This document shows, piece after piece, positions 1 through 23,768 of a stretch of 24,730 nt of DNA. The stretch is from positions 1 to 24,730 of the IMG/VR virus record IMGVR_UViG_3300030103_000200. One strand, 5' to 3'. The DNA comes from a virus. Each line of letters starts with the position of its first letter. The stretch's first letter is position 1. The notes beneath the pieces were generated by a model. It was not told the origin of the DNA and did not search any database. It saw only the letters and a list, made by a program, of their open reading frames with translations. Made by a program: the position numbers and the translations under genes.

Positions 1-600
1 CTTCAAGAGATGGAGGAAGACGGATTTATTGAGATGATTAAGATGCCAAAACCTAGACCAACAAAGAACAGTAAGGTGCATTACCTAACCAAAGATATGG
101 AGGACGAGCTACTAAATTATTTAGAAACCAATTCTCATTATCAAGCTAAATATATTATCACTTGTCTTATTGATCTTGGTTGCAGAGTGAATGAACTTCT
201 TAATCTAGAAAAAAGATTTGTTGATTATGATAACAACCAAATTAATTTCAACGATAGAAAGAACGATCAAGCTGTAGCTGTACCTATGACTAACAGGGTT
301 AGAGAAACAATGCAAAGTTATTACAATCACAGTAAAGACTTTGATACTATCTTTAGCTATGACTACAGCGAACTAAATGCTATATGGCAGAAGGCTAGGA
401 ACGAGTTAGGCTATGCCGATAAGAAGTTTTATACTATCCACCTATGCCGACATACCTGCGCATCAAGGCTAGTACAAAGAGGAGTACCGATACTGTTAGT
501 CAAGGATTGGCTAGGGCATGAGGACATAGAGAACACCATGATCTATGCACACTTAGCACCAAAGGCTTTGCACTCTGTAGTTGATGTATTAAATGACTGA
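1..600 (+). CDS. int: Tyrosine recombinase (phage integrase), C-terminal part, cut by left window edge
   Basis: Catalyses site-specific recombination between phage and host attachment sites. The reading frame is open to base 1 and the first in-frame ATG (base 10) has no ribosome binding site, so the gene probably begins upstream. Counting from that ATG, the catalytic set of the tyrosine recombinase family is present: R59 (GCRVNELL), H144-x-x-R147 (HLCRH), H170 (WLGHE) and the nucleophile Y179 (MIYAHL). About 199 residues are visible. Phage integrases usually exceed 300, so the arm-binding and core-binding N-terminal domains must lie outside the window. The stop overlaps the start of the RNA polymerase gene by 8 nt, so the two are probably co-expressed. 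An integrase next to the RNA polymerase is known from some marine T7-like phages and suggests a temperate capacity. No tRNA-derived attP is visible in the window. Confidence 0.93.
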   Translation, partial: LQEMEEDGFIEMIKMPKPRPTKNSKVHYLTKDMEDELLNYLETNSHYQAKYIITCLIDLGCRVNELLNLEKRFVDYDNNQINFNDRKNDQAVAVPMTNRVRETMQSYYNHSKDFDTIFSYDYSELNAIWQKARNELGYADKKFYTIHLCRHTCASRLVQRGVPILLVKDWLGHEDIENTMIYAHLAPKALHSVVDVLND

Positions 601-2989
601 GCCTAGCAAGAAACAACTAGAGCTAGAGCAAAGTATCTCTAGTATCTCAGCCTATAACAAGATCAGTAAACAAAACAAAAACATAGAGAAGGGCAGAGAG
701 TCCGAAAACTATTATGCTCGCAACATCATAGAGTCAGGACTACAGAAGTTAAGCAAAGCAATACAAGATCATATAGATGAAAGTCTTAGCGGTAAGGTAG
801 GAGTCAAAGCTGTCTCTGCTTTGTTTCTTTCTCAGTTCCCAGACGTAGATGTAGTTGCCTTTATTGCTTTCAAAGTATTACTAGATAATGCTTCGCAGTT
901 AAAGACAACTGTATCTACTGCACTCAAGATAGGGCAGATGCTAGAAGACGAACTTAGGTTTACTAAGTTTGAAGAGCTAGACCCTAAACATTTTAAGAAC
1001 ATAAAGAAACATACCAGAGATACCAAGAACGAAGGCTATAAAAGAAACCTTATGGTCTATCACATGAACAGTAAAGGCCATGAGTTTAAGACTTGGACAA
1101 GGGGTAATAAACTTAAGGTTGGGCTTAAGTTGATTGAGTTGATAATGATAAAAATTAATATGGTCAACCTTATAAACAAGAGGGTAGGCAAAGCAACTAC
1201 AAGTTATGTTGTCTTTACTGATAGGTTTATGAAATATATAAGGCAGGGAAGATCAAATAGAATTGCTGCTTTTCCTATCTACCTACCTTGTCTTGATGTA
1301 CCTAGACCTTGGAAGTCTATAGATGATGGTGGTTACTTTACAGACAGATTAAAAACAAAAGCAATCAAGAGTTCTAATCAAGACTACCTAAACACACTAC
1401 GAGCAGAAGACTTAACAACAAGTCTGAAAGCGTTAACTCTGGCGAGTCAGACAGCTTGGGGTGTAAATCAATTTGTATTAGAAACTCTTGAATACTGTTG
1501 GGAGGAACGAATAGAGGTTGGTTCATTGATTGATAGGGAGCTTGCAGAACTGCCAACAAAACCACTCGATATAGATACCAATAAGGAAGCACGAAAAGAG
1601 TGGAGATACTTAGCTTCTTTAATCCATGATATGAACGCACAGAATATGGTCAAGCGGTATCAAATACTATCCATGATTGATACAGCAAAAAGATATTGTG
1701 ACGAAAAATTTTATCACGTTTATCAGTTTGATTTTACTGGTCGTATGTACCCACTTACTGCACACTTCCACCCACAAGGTAATGACATAGCTAGAGGGCT
1801 ACATAGATTCCATCAAGGTGTAGCGATTAATAATAAACAACAACTTAATTGGTTAGCCATAGCAGGTGCAAACCATTGGGGTATGAATAAACATACCTAT
1901 GAGGAAAGATTAGAGTGGGCTTACATAGAAGGTACTGACTTTGCTGAAGAAGTTTATAAAGACCCGATTGGTAGCGTTGGTATCTGGGGTAAAGCAAAAG
2001 AACCTTTTCAGTTTCTTGCTTGGTGTAAAGAGTGGTCAGAGTATCAGCTTCATGGTTGGGGTTATAAGTCTCATCATGTCTGCTGTCTTGATGGTACGAA
2101 CAATGGCTATCAACACATAGCAGGTCTTATATCTAATCAACATCTAGCTAACAAAGTTAACCTACAAAATGTTAATGAACCACAAGATTTATATAAACAA
2201 ATACTTGATGTTCTCTTGATGCTGTTGAAGTATGACAAAGCTGAACAGGCTGAGGTCTGGTATGCACAGAAAGATATGTTGACTAGAAAGTTTATAAAGA
2301 AACCTGTACTTATGATTCCATATAACTCAACTACATTCGGCATAGCTAACTACATAGAAAAATATTTTGTAAATGAAAATGTTTCTATGGCAAAAAATTT
2401 TAAGAATAATTTTTATTTAGCAACCATGATTGAACAGGCAGTTAAGTATGTAACCCCAGAAAGCTATGAAGTATTAAAGTACTTGCAGACTACAGCGTTA
2501 TGTTTCAATAAAGAAAACAAACCTATCTCTTGGCATACACCATCAGGCTTTCTTGTACAACAAAACTACTACAAGAATGATGTTAAAAGAGTGAAGACTA
2601 AACTAAGTAACTCAAGTGTAAGGTTAAGTCTGGCTGAACCTGATACAACTAAGGTAGATAAACGCAAACAGGCACAGGGTTTTCCTAGTAATTATATTCA
2701 TAGTCTTGATGCTGCACATTGTCACATGAGTTTAGTTGAAGCTAGTAAACATGGACTAAAAAACTTTTGTGTTATACATGATTGCTATGGCAGTCCAGCT
2801 AGTGAGCTTCAAAGATTTATCGAATGTGTAAAGCAAAGTTTCTTTAACATTTATAGTGACAACAATCTTGATAATCTATACCACCAAACAACACAACAAT
2901 TAAGCGATACAAGTAAGTTACCAGCAGCACTAGATATGGGAGACTATAACATTACAGATGTGTTGACAGCACCATATATATTTACATGA
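593..2989 (+). CDS. 1: Single-subunit T7-like DNA-directed RNA polymerase
   Basis: Transcribes the phage middle and late genes from phage-specific promoters; this gene defines the T7-like group. It is 798 residues, somewhat shorter than T7 gp1 (883). The palm and finger motifs of the family are intact: metal-binding D500 in CLDGTNNGYQH, K569 and Y577 in KKPVLMIPYNSTTFG (equivalent to T7 K631 and Y639), and the second catalytic aspartate D730 in CVIHDCYGS (equivalent to T7 D812). The preceding helix PSNYIHSLDAAH is also typical. ATG 593 overlaps the integrase stop (ATGACTGA), which suggests translational coupling. The N-terminal promoter-binding region is diverged from T7, so its promoter cannot be predicted from the T7 consensus. 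The assignment is firm. Confidence 0.97.
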   Translation: MTEPSKKQLELEQSISSISAYNKISKQNKNIEKGRESENYYARNIIESGLQKLSKAIQDHIDESLSGKVGVKAVSALFLSQFPDVDVVAFIAFKVLLDNASQLKTTVSTALKIGQMLEDELRFTKFEELDPKHFKNIKKHTRDTKNEGYKRNLMVYHMNSKGHEFKTWTRGNKLKVGLKLIELIMIKINMVNLINKRVGKATTSYVVFTDRFMKYIRQGRSNRIAAFPIYLPCLDVPRPWKSIDDGGYFTDRLKTKAIKSSNQDYLNTLRAEDLTTSLKALTLASQTAWGVNQFVLETLEYCWEERIEVGSLIDRELAELPTKPLDIDTNKEARKEWRYLASLIHDMNAQNMVKRYQILSMIDTAKRYCDEKFYHVYQFDFTGRMYPLTAHFHPQGNDIARGLHRFHQGVAINNKQQLNWLAIAGANHWGMNKHTYEERLEWAYIEGTDFAEEVYKDPIGSVGIWGKAKEPFQFLAWCKEWSEYQLHGWGYKSHHVCCLDGTNNGYQHIAGLISNQHLANKVNLQNVNEPQDLYKQILDVLLMLLKYDKAEQAEVWYAQKDMLTRKFIKKPVLMIPYNSTTFGIANYIEKYFVNENVSMAKNFKNNFYLATMIEQAVKYVTPESYEVLKYLQTTALCFNKENKPISWHTPSGFLVQQNYYKNDVKRVKTKLSNSSVRLSLAEPDTTKVDKRKQAQGFPSNYIHSLDAAHCHMSLVEASKHGLKNFCVIHDCYGSPASELQRFIECVKQSFFNIYSDNNLDNLYHQTTQQLSDTSKLPAALDMGDYNITDVLTAPYIFT

Positions 2990-3063: not shown

Positions 3064-3720
3064 ATGGAAGAACTCAAGGCTGAGACTATTAAGATAGTCA
3101 CACCTAACCCTACTAATTTTAGGTATTCATATCTTGTAACCCCTGACGAGTACAAGGGTATCAAGAAATATAAAGCAGAATGTCTTATCAAGAAAGGCAT
3201 AATGATGAAAGACAGTATGGGTAGAGAAGTTGATGCAGTAGAACATATCTACTCACAGCTAGAAGAACTACTTGATAGATGGAAGGTTTCATTAAAAGAA
3301 CATTATCCAGATAGAAAGTTTACTCTTACCAAGAATAAGTTTGGCGAACCTGCACTACCTTATTACTTAGAAGATGATTACCTAGTCATCAAGACAAGCA
3401 AGAAAGCTGGTGGAGTAAAACAAAATGGAGAAGTATGGACTAATCCACCTGTTACTTTCTGGGCTAATGAAGACCCACTACGTCTAATGACAGACGAAGA
3501 AAAAGAACAGTATGAAAAGATTAGTCCTATGACAGAAGGGCAGATGTCTATGAAGTGTAGTGGCTATGACGCAGGTGCTAATGGTGTCGGTATAAGATGC
3601 CAACCTTTACAAGTCATAGTTAGAAAGCACGTTGAATGGACAGGCAGCCCAGACTTTCAAGCAGAAGCACCGAGTAGTTATGAAGAGAAAAGCACTGCGT
3701 CATCAGCAGCCGACTTCTAA
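3064..3720 (+). CDS. 2.5: Single-stranded DNA-binding protein, T7 gp2.5 type
   Basis: Binds ssDNA during replication and recombination and coordinates helicase, polymerase and exonuclease. Its 218 residues compare with 232 in T7 gp2.5. The N-terminal segment (KIVTPNPTNFRYSYLVTPDEY) and the central strands around PPVTFWANEDPLRLM fit an OB-fold of this family. The C-terminus ends in Asp-Phe. In T7 the terminal aromatic residue and acidic tail mediate partner contacts. The tail here is less acidic (EEKSTASSAADF) but keeps the final Phe. It lies after the RNA polymerase and before the junction endonuclease, exactly the T7 order, and overlaps the start of the endonuclease gene by 41 nt. Assignment rests on position, size and pattern rather than a catalytic motif. 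Confidence 0.85.
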   Translation: MEELKAETIKIVTPNPTNFRYSYLVTPDEYKGIKKYKAECLIKKGIMMKDSMGREVDAVEHIYSQLEELLDRWKVSLKEHYPDRKFTLTKNKFGEPALPYYLEDDYLVIKTSKKAGGVKQNGEVWTNPPVTFWANEDPLRLMTDEEKEQYEKISPMTEGQMSMKCSGYDAGANGVGIRCQPLQVIVRKHVEWTGSPDFQAEAPSSYEEKSTASSAADF

Positions 3721-4096
3721 ATACAAGAGTAAGTTTGAAGCTACGTTTGCTGACAACTTAACCAAAAAGAAAATTGTATTTACCTATGAAACAATCAGCA
3801 TTGACTATGAAATTACTTGCTGCTACAAGCCTGACTTTATTCTCGACAATTTCATTGTTGAAACGAAGGGCTACTTCTCCAAAGAAGATAGACGAAAACA
3901 TCTTGCGATTAAGAAGAAACGACCCGAATTAGATATAAGGTTCTGCTTTCAAAATAGTAGAACCAAACTATCTAAAGCTAAGAACTCTATCTCGTATGCC
4001 GATTGGTGTACGAGACATGGGTTCCAATACTGCGACAAATTTATTCCTGATGATTGGTATGAAGAGCCAATACAAAAACAAAATAGTTTGCCCTGA
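3680..4096 (+). CDS. 3: Endonuclease I, Holliday-junction resolvase (T7 gp3 type)
   Basis: Cleaves branched DNA; in T7 it resolves replication and recombination intermediates and helps degrade host DNA. From ATG 3680 the product has 138 residues (T7 gp3 has 149). The catalytic set is intact: E20 in SKFEATF, D52 in YKPDFIL, E61 and K63 in VETKGYF. E20 falls at the same residue number as in T7. The downstream signature RRKHLAIKKKRPELDIRFCF and SRTKLSK matches the family. An upstream in-frame ATG at 3632 would add 16 residues lying wholly within the ssb gene and aligning with nothing in T7 gp3, so I prefer 3680. Neither start has a clear ribosome binding site. Re-initiation after ssb is plausible. 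The 3' end overlaps the primase-helicase gene. Confidence 0.93.
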   Translation: MKRKALRHQQPTSKYKSKFEATFADNLTKKKIVFTYETISIDYEITCCYKPDFILDNFIVETKGYFSKEDRRKHLAIKKKRPELDIRFCFQNSRTKLSKAKNSISYADWCTRHGFQYCDKFIPDDWYEEPIQKQNSLP

Positions 4097-5663
4097 GTGC
4101 GGTAAAAAAAACTGTGCAGTCTTTGATGATGGACACCACCATTGCTTCACTATGGACTGTGGCTACACTTACTACCCAGATAAAAAAGAAAAACCAGTGA
4201 CCACTAAAATCATTCCTATATATAAACCAAACCCACAGCTATTAAAGGTAACACCAATAGCTTTACCTAAACGTGGGATCACTAAGGAAACTTCAGAACT
4301 ATTTGGATATGGTATGTCAGAGTACAGAAGACAACCAGTACAGGTAGCTACATATAAAGATCAGAAAGGTAATGATGTTGCACAACATATACGCTTTCAA
4401 GATAAGAAGTTTATATGGATAGGAGATATGTCAAAGGTACAGCTATGGGGTCAGCATCTATGGAGACAACATGGAGGTAATGGTTCTGTCTTTATAACTG
4501 TTTGCGAAGGAGAGATAGATTGCATGAGTGCTAGTCAAATACAAGGTAATAAGTTTCCCTGTGTTTCTATACCATCAGGAGTGCAGTCAGCAGCTAAGTA
4601 TCTAGCAGCTAACTACAAATGGCTTGATAGTTTTTGTCGTATCGTTATCTGCTTTGATAATGATGAAGCTGGTAATAAAGCAGCAGAGAAATGTATGGAG
4701 GTATTACCAAGAGGTAAGGCAGCCATAGCAAGACTAGATCGTAATGATATAAACGATCATCTTGTATTAGGAGAAGGTGATCTTATTAAAGACAGACTAT
4801 GGAAAGCTAGACCAGTAAGACCTGACTCTCTTATTAATGCAGCAGACGCTTGGGATTTGTTTACCAAAGAAACAAGTAAACCTGTATCAGACTTTCCATT
4901 TCCAAAGCTAAACGAATACACAAGAGGTTTGTTTCCTAGTCAGCTATTCACAGTAGCAAGTGCTAGTGGTGCAGGTAAATCCACGATATGCAGAGAACTA
5001 TGCCACCACTTCCTCAAAAGAAATCTAAAGGTTGGTTACATTGGGTTGGAAGAATCAGTACAAAGAACTCTTCAAGGTCTTGTAGGTATTGACTTGAATA
5101 TTCCTTTGCACTTAAATGAAGATGTCATAACTAAAGATGATCTGCGGATTGCGTTTGATAACCTCACATCAACACGCAATCTTTTTTTATACAATCACTT
5201 CGGAAGTCTTGAGCCTGATGTATTACTAGAACAAATAAGATATTTAGCTACTGTTGATGGAGTAAAGGTAGTCATACTAGATCACATAAGCATAGTCTTG
5301 TCTGGTCTTGAACTAGATAATGAACGCAAAGCAATAGATATAATAATGACCAAGCTTAGAAGTTTAAGTGAAGCAACTGGTATAGCTATCGTATTGGTCA
5401 GTCATCTACGCAGACCACAAGGACAATCACATGAGTCTGGAAGAGAAGTAGATACATCAGACTTGAGAGGATCGCATAGTCTTCTTCAACTTTCTGATGT
5501 TGTACTTTCTGCATCAAGAAACCAGACAGGAGATGCTAGTGAAAGGCAGAGACTACAGTTAAAAGTATTGAAGTCTAGACATACTGGTATGACAGGAGAA
5601 GTAGATAAATTATTGTACGACCAGAAGACAGGTCGGCTTGTTGTATATGAGGATTTTATTTAG
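4059..5663 (+). CDS. 4: DNA primase-helicase (T7 gp4 type)
   Basis: Unwinds the fork as a hexamer and synthesises RNA primers. From ATG 4059 it has 534 residues (T7 gp4A has 566). Domains in order: an N-terminal zinc ribbon with C11-x2-C14 and C29-x4-C34 (T7 has CxxC for the second pair, so the spacing is a variant); a TOPRIM primase core with E150-G-E152 and D200-N-D202; and a RecA-like helicase with Walker A SASGAGKS (K307), Walker B VVILDH (D408) and the sensor SHLRRP (H449). The frame is open further upstream, with ATGs at 4050 and 3996. The latter would overlap the endonuclease by 101 nt and place 21 extra residues before the zinc ribbon, so 4059 or 4050 is more likely. No start has a good ribosome binding site. 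The stop is 2 nt before the exonuclease gene, leaving no room for the gene 5 DNA polymerase found here in T7. Confidence 0.95.
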   Translation: MKSQYKNKIVCPECGKKNCAVFDDGHHHCFTMDCGYTYYPDKKEKPVTTKIIPIYKPNPQLLKVTPIALPKRGITKETSELFGYGMSEYRRQPVQVATYKDQKGNDVAQHIRFQDKKFIWIGDMSKVQLWGQHLWRQHGGNGSVFITVCEGEIDCMSASQIQGNKFPCVSIPSGVQSAAKYLAANYKWLDSFCRIVICFDNDEAGNKAAEKCMEVLPRGKAAIARLDRNDINDHLVLGEGDLIKDRLWKARPVRPDSLINAADAWDLFTKETSKPVSDFPFPKLNEYTRGLFPSQLFTVASASGAGKSTICRELCHHFLKRNLKVGYIGLEESVQRTLQGLVGIDLNIPLHLNEDVITKDDLRIAFDNLTSTRNLFLYNHFGSLEPDVLLEQIRYLATVDGVKVVILDHISIVLSGLELDNERKAIDIIMTKLRSLSEATGIAIVLVSHLRRPQGQSHESGREVDTSDLRGSHSLLQLSDVVLSASRNQTGDASERQRLQLKVLKSRHTGMTGEVDKLLYDQKTGRLVVYEDFI

Positions 5664-5665
5664 CT

Positions 5666-6400
5666 ATGACTTTACTTATTGATGCTGATTGGTTGGTTTA
5701 CAATTCTTGCTGTGCTTGTGAGCAAGACACAAAATGGAATGAGTGGGAGCATACTCTTCACTCTGATGAAAGAGACATACTTAATTTGATAGAGAACAGA
5801 CTAGATGTGTATAGAAGTATTGCTGACAGCAAGCATGACATAGTTATGTGCTTTACTTCCTATCCTACATTTCGACACGAGATATTTCCTGAGTACAAGA
5901 TCAACAGGATAGGTAAACGTAAACCACTTGCACTCAAGAGTGTTATCAAAGAAGTAAAAGAAAGATATGAAACTGTTGCCTATGAAAACCTAGAAGGAGA
6001 TGACGTACTAGGTTTGCTTGCTACCAATGGCAGATACAAAGACCCAATAATAGTTTCAGTAGATAAAGATATGAGAACACTACCATGCAAACTTATAGCT
6101 GATGATTCGATAGAACATATCACAAACAAGAAAGCAACTAGACATTGGTTTGAGATGTCGTTAGCTGGTGATGCTGGTGATGGGATACTAGGTATCAAAG
6201 GTATGGGTATGGTTACTGCTTCAAAGACTTTGGCTAGTACACCTGATACTAAAGAAGCACTATGGTCTAAGGTACAGGAGACATATACTAAAAAAGGTTA
6301 TACGATTGCTGATGCTATCTTGAATGCAAGGCTTACAAGGATACTGCGAGAAGGAGATTATGATTACAATACAGGAGAAGTAAAACTTTGGAACCCATAA
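5666..6400 (+). CDS. 6: 5'-3' exonuclease, flap endonuclease family (T7 gp6 type)
   Basis: Predicted to remove 5' ends and RNA primers and to degrade host DNA; T7 gp6 is essential for these roles and for recombination. It has 244 residues against 300 in T7. The metal-binding motifs of the 5'-nuclease/FEN family are visible: D6 and D8 in LLIDADWLVY, E110-G-D112-D113 in NLEGDDVLG, D133-K-D135 in VSVDKDMRT, and the helix-hairpin-helix-like DNA-binding segment SLAGDAGDGILGIKGMG. It directly follows the primase-helicase with a 2-nt gap. It is the last gene of the DNA-metabolism block and is followed at once by a terminator-like hairpin. An alternative reading as the 5'-nuclease domain of a PolA-type enzyme is unlikely, because no polymerase domain follows. 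Confidence 0.9.
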   Translation: MTLLIDADWLVYNSCCACEQDTKWNEWEHTLHSDERDILNLIENRLDVYRSIADSKHDIVMCFTSYPTFRHEIFPEYKINRIGKRKPLALKSVIKEVKERYETVAYENLEGDDVLGLLATNGRYKDPIIVSVDKDMRTLPCKLIADDSIEHITNKKATRHWFEMSLAGDAGDGILGIKGMGMVTASKTLASTPDTKEALWSKVQETYTKKGYTIADAILNARLTRILREGDYDYNTGEVKLWNP

Positions 6401-16206: not shown

Positions 16207-18900
16207 ATGGTTTTACAAGTAGGCACTACAAATTTTCAAAGTACAGCAGGTCAAAGCTCTAGAACTCCTGTAGAAACCTTTGTTAACCCTGTAACTGTTT
16301 TACCTAAAACTGGCTTGATGGGTTTGGCTGAAACCTTATCAGACATCAATCCTACACTACAGAGATTTGTTAACTTTCAAATTGATAAAGCAAAACAAGA
16401 AGGTGTATTAGAAGGACAGAATTTACTTTTAGGTGCTGATGATAAACAAATTACACAGATAAAAAAAGAATTATCTGAAAAGAAAGGCAACAGAATTATG
16501 AGAAATTTTGTTGGTGGAAATATGTATATAGAGTATGGAATTGAAAAACAACTTGCTATGAATTTAGGAAATATAGCAGAAGGTAAAACTAATCAATTCT
16601 TTGCAAATCATATTGTTCAAGTACCAAATAAAGAAGGTGGTACTACTGCTATACCTTTATCTCAGTTTGATGTTAACTCTAAAGAGTTTCAAGGAGCTAT
16701 AAACGAATTTAAAGAAACTCAATTATTAGATACCAAAGGAATAAGACCACAGCTTTTAAATCAATTTTTCTTTCCACAACAAAATGCAGCTTTACGCAAA
16801 GCAATAACTAAACAGGTAGAAGCAAAAGCAGATGCAAACATACAAAATTATACAAGTATGCTTACAGACAGTTCGTTGCTGTATTTTCGTAATATTGATA
16901 AATACAATGAAAATATTGAAGAGAATATTATTGATGCAGATTTTCAAGATGGAGAAAGCTATGCATTATCTTTACTTCAAGAAGATACAAACTATACATA
17001 TAGATTAGGTTTATCAGAGGTCGTTTCTCCGTCAGGTATGATTGAGATAATTAAAAAAAATGGTTATAGAATTTTAAATGATTTTGAAAGAGGAAATATT
17101 TCTTGGGTAGAAGCACAATCTGAGTTAGACGATTATATAGATTTTATGTCAGCAGTATCAGTAGGACCAAGTGGTACTACAAAAGAAGGATTACCAGTAC
17201 AAAAAACACTAGGAGAGTTTTTAGATCAAGATGATAGTATCTTAGAACTTAAAAAAGAAATATATGAAAAGATAAAAGATGCAAACAAAGAAGAACAAGA
17301 CCTTGCAAGCCTATTAAATAAAAAAGATATAACACAAACTTTAGGTAGTATGGATTGGACTTCTATGGATCAGACAACGTATGTCAATAATGTCAAAACT
17401 CTCAAAGCTTTAGTTGCAAGACACAAGGATTTAAAACAATTTATTGTTCAAGAATATAATTTAAGAAATGATAATGTTGATCTTTGGTTTGATAGATTTG
17501 TAAGAGACTATAACAATGGCAAGTTTGGCGATAGAGATAAAGCAAGAGTAAGGCTTGATAGTTTTATGGCTGTACTAGGCTCTACTGCAACTGATGAAGA
17601 TAGAACAAGATATGAAAAAGCTTTGAAATTAATTAATAGAGAAAACTCTCAAGGGGTGTTGTCTTCGTACCCAGAGTTTGAAACTACTCTTAAGAACATG
17701 AAAGAAGCTTTGAGAGAAGATAATAAGTCTGGATATACAGTAGTAAAAGTTGGTTATACAAATGCCTTTAATGACCTCTCAAAACGATATAGAGATAAGA
17801 TTGATAAATGGGCTACAACAGACTATGTAACTCAAAAAGAAAAAGATGAAGCAAAAGATGAAATTATTAAATTTGTGCAATTACAAACAATAAAAATTGT
17901 AGATGGTAACTACATATTTGAAAATCCTTTACTCGAAACTTTATATTATAAAGCAAATCCAAATTTAAAAAAGGAAAATAACAAGAAAATTAAGAACGAA
18001 ATAGAAAAAATGAAAGGATTAGCTGATGGTGGTCCTGTTAAAAAAGATGAACCTGTTATTGTTGGAGAAGAAGGCAGAGAAGTTTTTGTACCAAAAAGTG
18101 ATGGTAAAATAGTATCTAATGAAGTGATACAAAATTCAAATCAAGAAGCTTCTAAAGAAACAGAACAAGAAACTATTTATGAAGTACAAAGTGGAGATAC
18201 TTTAAGTTCTATTGCCGATAAGTTTGAAGGTGTAAATTATTTGAATATTGCTGAATTAAATAATTTAGATACTGAAGAAAAACAAAATAATATTAGTGTT
18301 GGTCAAAAATTTAAAATACCAAAAATAACAATACAAAAATCTAAAGGAGAAATTACACCACTTATAGAAACAAAAACAAATTTATGGAAAGGATTTAATG
18401 GTGCTACTGCTTATGGAAGTGGAGAAAGAAAAGTTGAATTAGAAAAAGATACTAAATATATTAAAAGTGTTATAAATCATGCTTATGCAGATAGTTCAAC
18501 TCCTGAGATACAACAAGAAGCTACAAAGATATATTCTGAATTATTTTATAGCAATAAGCCAGAAGACATCAAAACAAAAAATGCAATAGTTAATATGGTT
18601 TTAACAGAAGCTACCTTAAGTAGTCCAGAAGATATAGCAGGTGTAGTTCAAAGTGTATTTATGAGAGTGGCTAGAGCAAGATTAAATACCATTGACAGAG
18701 ATCGTTTTAAAGAAAATATAATAGAAGAATTAACTAGAAAAGAATTAAATAAAAAAGGTATATTAGTACCTATGTATCAAGGAATAGAAAAGTTTACAGT
18801 AGAAGAAATTACATCTAACAAACCAGTTAAAGAAAGTCAGGAGACTTATAATAAGATCTTTAGTATGTTATGGGAAGATACTTCTCAAAAAGATAAGTAA
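16207..18900 (+). CDS. 15: gp15-like internal virion protein with tape-measure-type motif, LysM and possible cell-wall hydrolase domain
   Basis: Lies in the place of T7 gene 15, whose product (747 residues) is a core and ejection protein; this one has 897 residues. Residues about 1-600 are a largely helical, Lys/Glu/Asn-rich region as expected for gp15. Residues 606-638 carry ADGGPVKKDEPVIVGEEG then REVFVPKSDGKIVSN, a motif usually found near the end of siphovirus/myovirus tape-measure proteins. Residues about 658-705 are a LysM peptidoglycan-binding domain (YEVQSGDTLSSIADKF, ending VGQKFKIPKI). Residues about 785-880 contain MVLTEATLSSPEDIAGVVQS and FMRVARARL, which resemble the core of SleB-type cell-wall hydrolases with E801 as the candidate catalytic residue; this last call is tentative. 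The gene is visibly more AT-rich than the head genes. Its stop overlaps the ATG of the next gene (TAATG). Confidence 0.85.
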   Translation: MVLQVGTTNFQSTAGQSSRTPVETFVNPVTVLPKTGLMGLAETLSDINPTLQRFVNFQIDKAKQEGVLEGQNLLLGADDKQITQIKKELSEKKGNRIMRNFVGGNMYIEYGIEKQLAMNLGNIAEGKTNQFFANHIVQVPNKEGGTTAIPLSQFDVNSKEFQGAINEFKETQLLDTKGIRPQLLNQFFFPQQNAALRKAITKQVEAKADANIQNYTSMLTDSSLLYFRNIDKYNENIEENIIDADFQDGESYALSLLQEDTNYTYRLGLSEVVSPSGMIEIIKKNGYRILNDFERGNISWVEAQSELDDYIDFMSAVSVGPSGTTKEGLPVQKTLGEFLDQDDSILELKKEIYEKIKDANKEEQDLASLLNKKDITQTLGSMDWTSMDQTTYVNNVKTLKALVARHKDLKQFIVQEYNLRNDNVDLWFDRFVRDYNNGKFGDRDKARVRLDSFMAVLGSTATDEDRTRYEKALKLINRENSQGVLSSYPEFETTLKNMKEALREDNKSGYTVVKVGYTNAFNDLSKRYRDKIDKWATTDYVTQKEKDEAKDEIIKFVQLQTIKIVDGNYIFENPLLETLYYKANPNLKKENNKKIKNEIEKMKGLADGGPVKKDEPVIVGEEGREVFVPKSDGKIVSNEVIQNSNQEASKETEQETIYEVQSGDTLSSIADKFEGVNYLNIAELNNLDTEEKQNNISVGQKFKIPKITIQKSKGEITPLIETKTNLWKGFNGATAYGSGERKVELEKDTKYIKSVINHAYADSSTPEIQQEATKIYSELFYSNKPEDIKTKNAIVNMVLTEATLSSPEDIAGVVQSVFMRVARARLNTIDRDRFKENIIEELTRKELNKKGILVPMYQGIEKFTVEEITSNKPVKESQETYNKIFSMLWEDTSQKDK
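18178..18321 (+). other. LysM domain inside the gp15-like protein
   Basis: Residues about 658-705 of the gp15-like product show the LysM pattern: YxVxxGDTLxxIA at the start, a middle NIAELNNLD, and the closing VGQKFKIP. LysM domains bind GlcNAc-containing glycans such as peptidoglycan, which fits a role in wall crossing during DNA ejection. Confidence 0.88.
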
Positions 18901-21900
18901 TGACTTTTACACCATCAAACAACAACATAGGTTATGAAAACGAAGAAAAGCCTACTGTTGATATAGGCATTGAAAATGAAAAGAAACCTACTTTAGATAT
19001 AAATATAGATCAAAAGTTTCAAGAAATAATTTCTGAAAATCAAACAACTGATAATACAACAGAAGAACAGCAGCCAGAAGTTGAGTTTGAAAATGTCTTT
19101 GATAATAAAAAAATATTTAATATGGATAAAAGTTGGATAGATTGGGATACAGAATATAACTTTAGTGATTACACAAATACTTTTTTACAAGATGGTGAAG
19201 AGCCATTTGATTTATATGCAGAACCAAATGATAAGACAAGAAATATATTCAATAAAACTATAGACTTTTCAGTTGGAGAAGATACTGTACCAAACCTTGA
19301 AGCACGTTTAAAATTTTTAAGTGTTTATGATTTTATAAAAGGTAATCAGTTTACTAACTTAGGTTTTAATAATAAACCAATTAAAGGTTTAAGAGATAGA
19401 CAGCAGTTTTTCAAGTTAATAAAACAAGAAACAGGTTTTACAGGTGAAGAGTTTTTAGGAAACAAGATACCTAGAGAAAAAGTAGAAAGCGAAGAGTTCC
19501 AAAAAGGTCTTGCAAATGTAATGAAACATTATGAAGACAAAGGTTTTACTATTAATATGCTTGAAGCTGATGACGAGTCACAACTAAATAAGTTAGCAAA
19601 AGGTTTAGGTATAGAGATAGGTGTAGGTATAACAGCAGATTATGTATTTGCACCTTTACTAATGGGTAATGGTTGGTCTAAAGCTATATATGCTCTTGGT
19701 CAATTTTCAGTAGGTTATACAGCAAATATAGAAGCACAAAAACAAAGAGTAAAAGAAGAAGACAGAGTAAATTTTAAACCTAATCAGAATGAAGCTGTTG
19801 CAGCAGGTTTTACACAAATTATTCCTTTTGGTGTAACTCTAAAAGGTTGGAAAGGTGTAGCTGCGTCAGGTGGTTATGGTGGAACGATTGCTACTACTGA
19901 AACTTTTTTAAGAGATATATTAGGAGATGACGTAACTTTAGATGAATACTATGCTTCATTTGGTTTAGGTGCTGCTTTTGGTACTGGATTTAAAGTCTCT
20001 ATTGACGGATTAGATAAGATATTTACTAAATATAAAAATTATAAATTTGATAAAACAAACAACATATTTAACTTGAACAAAAAAGAAGTTCAAGTTGTAG
20101 AGGAAGCAAACGAAAACATAACTAAAGCAAATAAAGTTTTAAAAAATGATATAGAAAGTAAAGGAGAAAATTACGACAACATTGGAGAAAAGTTAAAAAA
20201 CGAAGGTTCTGGTACAAGTAGTCAAACAAATACAAGACCTATAGATGGTTCTGTCAGAACATATATAATGCCTAATCAATTTAAAAATACAAAACCTAAC
20301 TATGGAGATGCACCAATAATTTTTCAATCTGATTTTGATAAGATGGCTTGGTATTTGAGATATAAGAAAACAAAACCACCAAAGTACGCAGATAAAATTT
20401 TAGAAAGTTTTATTACTCAAGGTTTTACCGAAGCAGAAATAAGACAACATGGAACTAACATACATGAAAAAATAAAACAGATAGTTATTGATAAAACAGG
20501 TAACGCAAAAGCAGGTCAAGGTAACACAGTAGGACTAACAATAGAAGTACCTGCTGATGCTAAATATTCCCAAGAAGTGCAAACAAGTATTACTGGCAAA
20601 AAACAAAACTTAGGCGATCTTACAAAGAATCCTCAATCAGTTGCTTTTATTAAAGAATTTAAACCAAGACAACAAGAATTAGTAGAATCAATAATCAGGC
20701 AATTAAAAGATGAAGATGTTTTTGTAGGCTCTAAAAGCCAAGTACAAACAAGGCTTGAAGGTCTAGGTATGTTTGATAAAGGAGTTGTTAAGTTATCTAA
20801 TACAAGTGCGATAAAAGAATATGCAGAAATGTATGCAAAGATGTATAACCTAGTTCCTAGTGATTCTTTAAATTTTGCAGTTGCACAAGTTATAACACTC
20901 GCAACAGAAAACGTAGCTAATAAGAACCAAATAATGATGGACCTTATTAAGACAAAAGATTCTGCAAAGATACAGAAAAGTATTGATGATCTGTTTGAAG
21001 CACTAACAGATGTAGAAGAATGGTTAACACTAGGTCTGCCACTAAGAACACAAGCAGGTAGAACTGTTAAGTCTTTTGGTATGAAGACAGAGCAAGGTAT
21101 AGAAGGCAAAACAGTTGAAGAGATAACAGGTATGACACCTGCTGAGAAAGCTGCTGCTACTGCTAAAGTACCTGAGTTACAAATAGATATTGATGACGCA
21201 ATATCAAGAAATCAATTATTAAAAACTAGACTTACAGAAGCTTTAGAGGAAGCTACAAAAACAGGAGATTATTCAAAGTTAAATCAAGCAGCAGTTACTT
21301 TAAAAGCAGCAAGTGGTGATCCTAGAAAACTTGTTGCAATACAAAATCAAGATGCTATCTCTACTTCACTTATAAAAGGATTAGACAAAGGTGCAAGAAT
21401 TATAAATGAAATTGGTATTAATGCTGTTCTTTCTGGTCCTAATACACAAGCAATAAATTTATATTCTGGTGCAATGATGACATTTATGAAAGCAATGAAT
21501 AATTTTGTAGGTGCTAGTAGTGTTCAAGAATTAAGGGCAGCACAACAATATATGTCTTATTTATTTTATAACTTAGATTTTGGTGTAAATGCTTGGAAAA
21601 GATCATGGGATATGGAAGACAATTTTATCAATGTTGGAAATGTTAAAGGAGATACAGGTCAACGATTTATTATATCTTCAGATTCTAGCTTCTGGCCTTT
21701 AAGAGCTTATGACGAGTTTGGAAGAATCATAAGACTACCTAGTAGATTAATGACAGCTAATGATGCCTTAATACAAGCACCTAATATTATTGCTGCTACT
21801 GCATTTGAAGCTTTTAATGAAGGTGTTGGTAGAAATTTAGAAGGAGAAGATTTAACAAAATATATAAAAGGAACTGTAGATGGTGTTATATCTTATTTAC

Positions 21901-23768
21901 TTAGAGGTCAAGAAGGAACTTTAGGTAGAATTGATCCATTAGATGAAGGAGTAGTTGGACCAAGACAAATGCAACCAACTGATGCAGTAATACAAAGAAT
22001 ACTTACAAGAGCAAAAGAAGTTGGTAAAACTATTACCTTTACTCAAGACATAAGAACAGACAGTTATTTTGGTAAAGGTGCAAAGTTTATAAATGATGCA
22101 GCTATAAACAATCCAGCAGTTAGATTTTATTTTAAATTTACAAGAACTCCAACCAATATGTTTTTAGAAACTGCAAGATACTTGCCAATAGTAAATATGC
22201 CAATACAAGTTACATTACCAAGTGGACAGAGAGTAAACCTAAATCGTGTCAATCAGTTTCTTTTGCCTGATATGGTTGCTGACTTAAATAGTCCAGACCC
22301 TTATGTTCGTCAACAGGCAAATGGTCAAATAAGAATGGGTGCTGCACTTGGTACTTTAATGTTATTTCTAACTAATAAACAATTTGAAGATGTAGATGAC
22401 GAATATAAAAAAGAATTTTTAACAGGTGGTGGTCCTAATTTTTATACCAAAGAAGGTGCTGCACAATGGATTTCTATGTATAAAAATGGTTGGCGACCTT
22501 ATAGTAAAGCTGTTTTACAGTATGACGAGAATGGCGATCCTTTGCTAAGAAATGGTAAGCCTGTATATATCTATAAGAGTCTTGAGTTTATACCCGATCC
22601 ACTAGCTTCTTTAGTTAGAACTTGGTTAGATTTTGCTGAGATGCAGCCGTGGTTGCCTGATGAAGGAGAAGGAGTAATGGAATATGTAGGAACTTGGTTT
22701 GCTTTTGTTGGTCGTAATATGTTTGGTAAAACATATACAAGTCAAATATCAGAGCTATTGAAAATTCTTTCAGCAGGTGGACAACTAACTGAACAAGGTA
22801 TAGATGAAGGTTTGAAATATCGAGACAAAAAACTTCTTGATTATATTGGTAGGCAAGTATCCGCTAACTTCCCTTATTCAAGTTTGTTTAAAAGACTTGC
22901 AAGAGTACCAGCAGCTATAAAAGAAACAATGGGATTTAATGAGGAAGATGCTAAAGCTTTGTTTGAATCAACAGGCGATCCTACACAATTAAGAAAATTT
23001 ATAAAACGTGATTCAAAAACATACTCAGGAGATGGTGCTAATGAAAGCTTGCCATATAGTGACGAAGATTTTAATAAAGCAAATTATATAGTACAAGCTC
23101 TTGAAAATACAGTAGATAAGATGTTTAAAGAAATCGTACCTTTAAATGTAGGAGGTAAGCTTCCTTCACAAGTAGAGCATATAACTAATAATGTAATAAC
23201 TTATCCACGTAAAGAAGGAGGTCTTTTTCAATTTATCTACAATAGACCTATAGGAGAAAGTCAAAACTTTTTAGTTCTTGATGTGCAAGCTGAAATAGGT
23301 AAAATGTTACCTCCACCGCCAGATATTATAAGAGGATCAGTATTACCTAATTTAAGATCAGCAGACTTCATACCAAAAAAATTAGATAGAAATGAATATA
23401 ATACTTTGAAAAAAATTACAAACCTTGTAGAACTAAAATATAAAGGTAGAAATATGAATATAAAAGAAGCTATCAATGCAGAGATAAATACAGATTATAT
23501 ACAACTACGAAGAAATACTATTAAAAATTATGGATTACAAAGTGAAGAAGGACAAAGAGCATCAGAAGAAATATTCCAAGAATTATCTAAGATAAATACC
23601 AAATATATAAAAGCAGGTATGATAGAGTATATGCAAACTGAAATGACAGAAGAAGATAGAAATAATAGAATAAATGCAGTTGAAGAAAAGAATCAAAACT
23701 TTAATGATGTATTGCTTAAAGAGTTTGATAAACTTAACTTAGGTACATTTAACAATAGTTCCTTTTAA
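18900..23768 (+). CDS. 16: gp16-like internal virion (ejection) protein
   Basis: The largest protein of the window, 1622 residues; T7 gp16 has 1318. T7 gp16 forms the inner part of the internal core, enters the host cell and helps pull in DNA. The N-terminus has a 12-residue tandem repeat (residues 11-22 and 23-34) inside an acidic, disordered stretch. Residues about 235-370 hold several Gly/Ala-rich hydrophobic segments (GIEIGVGITADYVFAPLL, AVAAGFTQIIPFGVTLKG, YYASFGLGAAFGTGFKVSI), consistent with membrane insertion. The rest is helical, with conserved-looking segments such as VLSGPNTQAINLYSG and PSRLMTANDALIQAPN. I see no lytic transglycosylase (SLT) motif where T7 gp16 carries one. Composition is AT-rich. 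The start is the TAATG overlap with the gp15-like gene; the tail fibre gene follows 2 nt after the stop. Confidence 0.85.
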   Translation: MTFTPSNNNIGYENEEKPTVDIGIENEKKPTLDINIDQKFQEIISENQTTDNTTEEQQPEVEFENVFDNKKIFNMDKSWIDWDTEYNFSDYTNTFLQDGEEPFDLYAEPNDKTRNIFNKTIDFSVGEDTVPNLEARLKFLSVYDFIKGNQFTNLGFNNKPIKGLRDRQQFFKLIKQETGFTGEEFLGNKIPREKVESEEFQKGLANVMKHYEDKGFTINMLEADDESQLNKLAKGLGIEIGVGITADYVFAPLLMGNGWSKAIYALGQFSVGYTANIEAQKQRVKEEDRVNFKPNQNEAVAAGFTQIIPFGVTLKGWKGVAASGGYGGTIATTETFLRDILGDDVTLDEYYASFGLGAAFGTGFKVSIDGLDKIFTKYKNYKFDKTNNIFNLNKKEVQVVEEANENITKANKVLKNDIESKGENYDNIGEKLKNEGSGTSSQTNTRPIDGSVRTYIMPNQFKNTKPNYGDAPIIFQSDFDKMAWYLRYKKTKPPKYADKILESFITQGFTEAEIRQHGTNIHEKIKQIVIDKTGNAKAGQGNTVGLTIEVPADAKYSQEVQTSITGKKQNLGDLTKNPQSVAFIKEFKPRQQELVESIIRQLKDEDVFVGSKSQVQTRLEGLGMFDKGVVKLSNTSAIKEYAEMYAKMYNLVPSDSLNFAVAQVITLATENVANKNQIMMDLIKTKDSAKIQKSIDDLFEALTDVEEWLTLGLPLRTQAGRTVKSFGMKTEQGIEGKTVEEITGMTPAEKAAATAKVPELQIDIDDAISRNQLLKTRLTEALEEATKTGDYSKLNQAAVTLKAASGDPRKLVAIQNQDAISTSLIKGLDKGARIINEIGINAVLSGPNTQAINLYSGAMMTFMKAMNNFVGASSVQELRAAQQYMSYLFYNLDFGVNAWKRSWDMEDNFINVGNVKGDTGQRFIISSDSSFWPLRAYDEFGRIIRLPSRLMTANDALIQAPNIIAATAFEAFNEGVGRNLEGEDLTKYIKGTVDGVISYLLRGQEGTLGRIDPLDEGVVGPRQMQPTDAVIQRILTRAKEVGKTITFTQDIRTDSYFGKGAKFINDAAINNPAVRFYFKFTRTPTNMFLETARYLPIVNMPIQVTLPSGQRVNLNRVNQFLLPDMVADLNSPDPYVRQQANGQIRMGAALGTLMLFLTNKQFEDVDDEYKKEFLTGGGPNFYTKEGAAQWISMYKNGWRPYSKAVLQYDENGDPLLRNGKPVYIYKSLEFIPDPLASLVRTWLDFAEMQPWLPDEGEGVMEYVGTWFAFVGRNMFGKTYTSQISELLKILSAGGQLTEQGIDEGLKYRDKKLLDYIGRQVSANFPYSSLFKRLARVPAAIKETMGFNEEDAKALFESTGDPTQLRKFIKRDSKTYSGDGANESLPYSDEDFNKANYIVQALENTVDKMFKEIVPLNVGGKLPSQVEHITNNVITYPRKEGGLFQFIYNRPIGESQNFLVLDVQAEIGKMLPPPPDIIRGSVLPNLRSADFIPKKLDRNEYNTLKKITNLVELKYKGRNMNIKEAINAEINTDYIQLRRNTIKNYGLQSEEGQRASEEIFQELSKINTKYIKAGMIEYMQTEMTEEDRNNRINAVEEKNQNFNDVLLKEFDKLNLGTFNNSSF
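18930..19001 (+). repeat. Tandem 12-residue coding repeat at the N-terminus of the gp16-like protein
   Basis: Two adjacent 36-nt units encode GYENEEKPTVDI (18930-18965) and GIENEKKPTLDI (18966-19001), 8 of 12 residues identical and the rest mostly conservative. They lie in an acidic N-terminal extension and may be a short binding motif in duplicate. Confidence 0.75.

Follow-up and report, generated by a model that had tools for sequence, protein, structure and literature searches.

The window analysed here, a 24,730-base stretch that makes up the entire virus record IMGVR_UViG_3300030103_000200, very likely comes from an uncultured T7-like cyanopodovirus of the MPP-C clade, phages that would borrow the DNA polymerase of their host. 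The absence of a phage polymerase gene is real and is an effect neither of the fragmentary record nor of the assembly. Cai et al. 2022 isolated 18 polymerase-less phages, named the clade MPP-C and published its lack of a DNA polymerase gene together with the hypothesis that a host polymerase is used (PMC9860041). The polymerase-less kind is therefore already described, and the window adds another, uncultured member to it. A preliminary description of the sequence had considered that the use of a host polymerase would be a notable change for a T7-like replisome; the absence stands, but its novelty is lower because the kind had been reported (PMC9860041). The MPP-C isolates infect Prochlorococcus MED4 without a polymerase gene of their own (PMC9860041), and Prochlorococcus as the host of the window phage is inferred from its relatives only.

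The record is a fragment in which the integrase gene is cut at the left end and the tail fibre gene at the right end. Its replication region reads as follows.

1..600, + strand: integrase, 5' end lost at the record edge (PF00589, E 1.7e-24)
593..2989, + strand: T7-type single-subunit RNA polymerase (PF00940, E 9.4e-77; phrog_414, E 2.1e-190)
3064..3720, + strand: gp2.5-type ssDNA-binding protein (SSB), C-terminus SSAADF (phrog_112, E 6.2e-6)
3632..4096, + strand: gp3-type endonuclease I (PF05367, E 1.5e-37), frame taken from the TTG at 3632, true start maybe later
3996..5663, + strand: gp4-type primase-helicase, 555 aa as called (phrog_239, E 4.4e-161; DnaB_C, Toprim and Helic-prim_T7_N)
5640..5663, + strand: C-terminal end of the helicase, VVYEDFI-stop, where Phe, the last residue of the T7-type polymerase-binding tail, is not at the end
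5664..5665, no strand: 2-nt junction where relatives have gene 5 and small ORFs (from the sequence and the loci of relatives)
5666..6400, + strand: gp6-type 5'-3' exonuclease (PF02739, 5_3_exonuc_N, E 2.2e-14; phrog_107, E 2.8e-47)

Matches to Pfam and PHROGs confirmed that the gp2.5, gp3, gp4 and gp6 types named in the preliminary description are present; the SSB was recognised by a weak PHROGs match alone (E 6e-6), and Pfam recognised the other T7-type replication proteins. The window thus has the primase-helicase, SSB, endonuclease I and 5'-3' exonuclease of a T7-type replisome and has no phage family A polymerase beside the primase-helicase. The Walker A, Toprim and zinc-ribbon residues of the helicase are all there, and its true start is likely to be the ATG at 4059. 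The first ~22 codons of the called helicase ORF (3996-4058) match the beginning of a small ORF that stands by itself upstream of the helicase in P-SCSP2 (5558-5764) and S08-C159; most of this small gene has apparently been lost from the window, where its start is now in frame with the helicase. On the 3' side of the exonuclease are a Bbp19-like small protein (under its Pfam cut-off), two small ORFs and the portal gene.

The junction was read directly from the sequence. The helicase ends with GAG GAT TTT ATT TAG (stop 5661-5663), followed by CT and the exonuclease ATG at 5666, so that the two genes are indeed 2 nt apart as noted before. We classified the same locus in 317 sequences, from which we removed 10 that had no helicase match and 15 whose C-terminus was cut. 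Among the 292 loci kept, each with a complete helicase C-terminus, 176 were polymerase-bearing, 98 were polymerase-less and 17 were undecided, and the remaining one (L205), with 1241 nt available, showed no polymerase over that length. In the 98 polymerase-less loci, which include the window and its named relatives, the exonuclease gene lies directly 3' of the helicase gene. A separate listing of gaps gave 2 nt for nearly all of its polymerase-less loci and a 4-nt overlap for a few. The gap of 1610 listed for L060 and L061 is due to an upstream in-frame stop, and the junction is direct there too; the listing gives no gap value for L003, which is on the minus strand, and L074 is partial. In the polymerase-bearing relatives fetched, gene 5 was at the same place, nearly always beside small ORFs. 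The comparison with related phage genomes suggested in the preliminary description gave the same picture, P-SCSP2, P-SCSP1u and S08-C159 sharing the polymerase-less junction.

The many independent contigs of close relatives with the same direct junction rule out an assembly deletion, which had been feared at 5640-5690. With a record that is a 24.7 kb fragment, one could still argue that the polymerase only appears to be missing, through such a deletion or a position beyond the window. The chance of this is close to nil, as no polymerase occurs at any of the 98 direct junctions and the complete isolate genomes agree with the window.

Since the record is a fragment, the absence had to be examined in fuller relatives, and since a chance estimate is inapplicable to the absence of a gene, polymerase-bearing relatives served as the relevant control. 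The family A search matched all 13 polymerase-bearing relatives at E <= 4.1e-32, and the same search found nothing in three polymerase-less records. PF00476 (DNA_pol_A) had no match in the whole 24,730-base window, in agreement with the preliminary description, nor in the two complete isolates (P-SCSP2 and P-SCSP1u) or in any of 32 virus records, which are a subset of 80 loci; even at E <= 10 it was found in 0 of 13 records. PF00136 (DNA_pol_B) and PF07733 (DNA_pol3_alpha) likewise gave 0 of 13, with controls matching. PF03175 (DNA_pol_B_2, family B type 2) also gave 0 of 13 records, but it says nothing on absence because no control genome matched either. A family A, B and C search beyond the window, as the preliminary description had proposed, was thus run on complete and long relatives, and none was found in the two complete isolates and ten virus records of 31-39 kb. 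This disfavours the first of the two alternatives offered there, namely a recognisable polymerase elsewhere in the genome.

We also examined ORFs of at least 200 aa in three long relatives, G001, G003 and G005, each read in halves. G001 (36,015 bases) is 89.8% identical to the window across the aligned part of the latter (16,117 of 24,730 bases), and its ORFs without an assignment reach at most 268 aa. Set against the P-SCSP2 proteins compared, the longest unmatched ORFs were 268 aa (G001), 221 aa (G003) and 339 aa (G005); polymerase frames in relatives measure 569-710 aa, and the split P-SSP7 part 424 aa. A profile built from 13 gp5 sequences reached a best E of only 0.06 in these three records, on the gp12 tail protein.

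Two large late proteins of the window deserve description. The 897-aa protein (16207-18900) contains a LysM domain, matches transglycosylase/endolysin PHROGs weakly and is perhaps an ejected virion protein. The 1622-aa protein (18900-23768) has no PHROG match, and its sole Pfam line is at chance level. In G001 and G003, the matches that assign these two proteins are weak (23-29% identity). Since hardly any family matches the two, the LysM domain of the first aside, one of them might in principle contain a polymerase of a very divergent or new kind, and Cai et al. kept such a reading open (PMC9860041). We consider it highly improbable: neither the family A, B and C searches nor the gp5 profile, with its best score on a tail protein, pointed to a polymerase, the 897-aa protein has its LysM domain, and both large ORFs belong to the virion block, whose large genes in P-SCSP2 were suggested to encode internal virion proteins (PMC9860041).

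The position of the window within MPP-C was examined with the helicase. Its amino acid identity is 80.5% to P-SCSP2, 79.5% to S08-C159 and 52.6% to the P-SCSP1 isolates; the next relatives, at ~40-44%, are roseophages, pelagiphages, a few other phages and Synechococcus phage S-TIP28. In a tree of 44 helicases, built without undecided loci, short helicases or near-duplicates and drawn with a midpoint root for display, the five polymerase-less representatives formed one group (support 100/100) and the polymerase label changed once. This group holds the window, P-SCSP2 and P-SCSP1u, and the helicase nearest to that of the window is from S08-C159. These sequence relationships fit a single loss of the polymerase in the clade. 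HTVC119P and HTVC200P may be the sister group, with weak support (91/40) and a long-branch warning. No further polymerase-less T7-like lineage appeared among the best 80 matches of each of two scans; from these 156 further loci, 29 had no helicase match and 2 ended early, and the other 125 comprised 121 polymerase-bearing and 4 undecided loci.

The features given for MPP-C can be compared directly. No identifiable DNA polymerase gene is present in the window or in its fuller relatives, and the window was seen to group with P-SCSP1 and P-SCSP2, separately from MPP-A and MPP-B, on the tree of the helicase, one of nine core genes. MPP-C genomes are described as 37.3-37.9 kb long and as free of auxiliary metabolic genes (PMC9860041); no psbA, hli, rnr, talC, thyX or mazG was found in the part of the ORFs scanned in the 24.7 kb fragment. 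P-SCSP2 (OM416780) and P-SCSP1a-u (e.g. OM416779) have the gene order of the window, RNA polymerase, primase-helicase, exonuclease, portal and capsid, with no DNA polymerase. An integrase is common to P-SCSP2 and the window, and in P-SCSP2 it is likewise upstream of the RNA polymerase. Endonuclease I (3632-4096) is kept by the window although P-SCSP2 is reported to have none (PMC9860041). In the uncultured phage MedDCM-OCT-S08-C159 (GU943031, Jalkavirus S08C159), the exonuclease gene directly overlaps the primase gene and no polymerase separates them; unlike the window, this 10.3 kb fragment lies on the opposite strand in its record, and its annotation is silent on the missing polymerase. MPP-A and MPP-B phages (Syn5, P-SSP7) share the T7-like block of RNA polymerase, SSB, endonuclease, helicase, polymerase and exonuclease, but in them gene 5 separates the helicase and exonuclease genes, and the last residues of the helicase are DF. 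Escherichia phage T7 has the gp2.5, gp3, gp4 and gp6 types in common with the window, whereas its gp5 polymerase, coupled to gp4, has no counterpart in the window, where the short helicase tail ends in YEDFI.

With the gene absent from the clade, the use of a host polymerase follows, as the second alternative in the preliminary description had it; this reading is supported as the one left over, and it agrees with the hypothesis published for MPP-C (PMC9860041). We propose that an ancestor lost the gene 5 region, that is the family A polymerase with its flanking small ORFs, from between helicase and exonuclease and would have retained the rest of the T7-type replication set. Primers would come from phage RNA polymerase transcripts or from the phage primase, the phage helicase would open the fork, the phage SSB would coat single strands and a host polymerase would carry out synthesis. 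The phage exonuclease would take away RNA primers and break down host DNA, as its counterpart does in T7. The longer latent period of MPP-C phages (PMC9860041) fits a borrowed polymerase, and other causes are possible.

The terminal Phe of T7 gp4 has a role matching that of the C-terminal Phe of gp2.5, which is reportedly essential. In our first sample, 174 of 176 polymerase-bearing helicases ended in Phe, versus 0 of 98 polymerase-less ones, which show 13 distinct 10-residue tails. Since all polymerase-less cases form one clade, this tail change counts as one event. All 52 polymerase-less loci in which the SSB is complete have kept its terminal Phe, as have 150 of 153 polymerase-bearing loci. 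Considered as a diagnostic for polymerase loss, the helicase tail was rejected: in the broader sample, taken from the best 80 matches of each of the two scans, 82 of 121 polymerase-bearing helicases have Phe at the end, 9 have Tyr and 30 another residue. With the terminal Phe lacking in 39 of the 121, the tail serves as no more than a hint. In the polymerase-bearing phages HTVC119P and HTVC200P the helicase terminates with HEEI and the SSB with EDFI, so that neither protein has a terminal Phe. The second zinc-binding pair of the helicase ribbon (~residues 32-55 of the called ORF in the window) was not found in 34 of the polymerase-less loci; in 48 of them it reads CxxxxC and in 16 CxxC; among the polymerase-bearing loci it reads CxxC in 146 of 176 and was not found in 30.

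In T7, gp4 and gp5 are coupled through acidic C-terminal tails (PMC12593628, PMC8472574). The options proposed for MPP-C were host Pol I, host Pol III and an unrecognised phage polymerase (PMC9860041). We lean slightly towards the host Pol III holoenzyme as the partner, because it is the replicative enzyme of the host and the tail change speaks weakly against another family A enzyme. The sequence gives no positive pointer to Pol III: the clamp-binding motif, in its simple form, had no site in 11 replication proteins (4 from the window and 7 from P-SCSP2 and P-SCSP1u), where shuffling expects 0.01-0.28 sites per protein, so that zero is uninformative. Host DNA polymerase I, perhaps modified by a phage factor, might instead replace gp5 at the fork. 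It is of the same family as the lost enzyme and was raised by Cai et al., who also describe it as mainly a repair enzyme (PMC9860041). The loss of the helicase terminal Phe is not expected for a simple family A swap, an argument that is weak given the broader sample; we regard Pol I as an unlikely partner. If Pol III is the partner, a rather doubtful extension is that a T7-type fork was refitted to it in steps, the helicase losing its docking Phe first and gene 5 being deleted later, so that helicase and Pol III holoenzyme would cooperate with no tether of the T7 type; HTVC119P and HTVC200P would then be a surviving intermediate.

The loss of the Phe on the helicase and its retention on the SSB offer a testable entry into the question of which host polymerase joins the phage primase-helicase. 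Later literature on MPP-C yielded a P-SCSP1u structure paper, and among the titles listed in the searches none concerned the replication mechanism of the clade. Because the absence is real and widespread, DNA polymerase is a poor marker for counting MPP-C phages, as was already argued in 2022 (PMC9860041), and the window contributes another lineage. Note that a P-SCSP2 gene annotated as hypothetical (35301-36251) matches ArdC-type anti-restriction proteins (ArdcN, MPTase-PolyVal).
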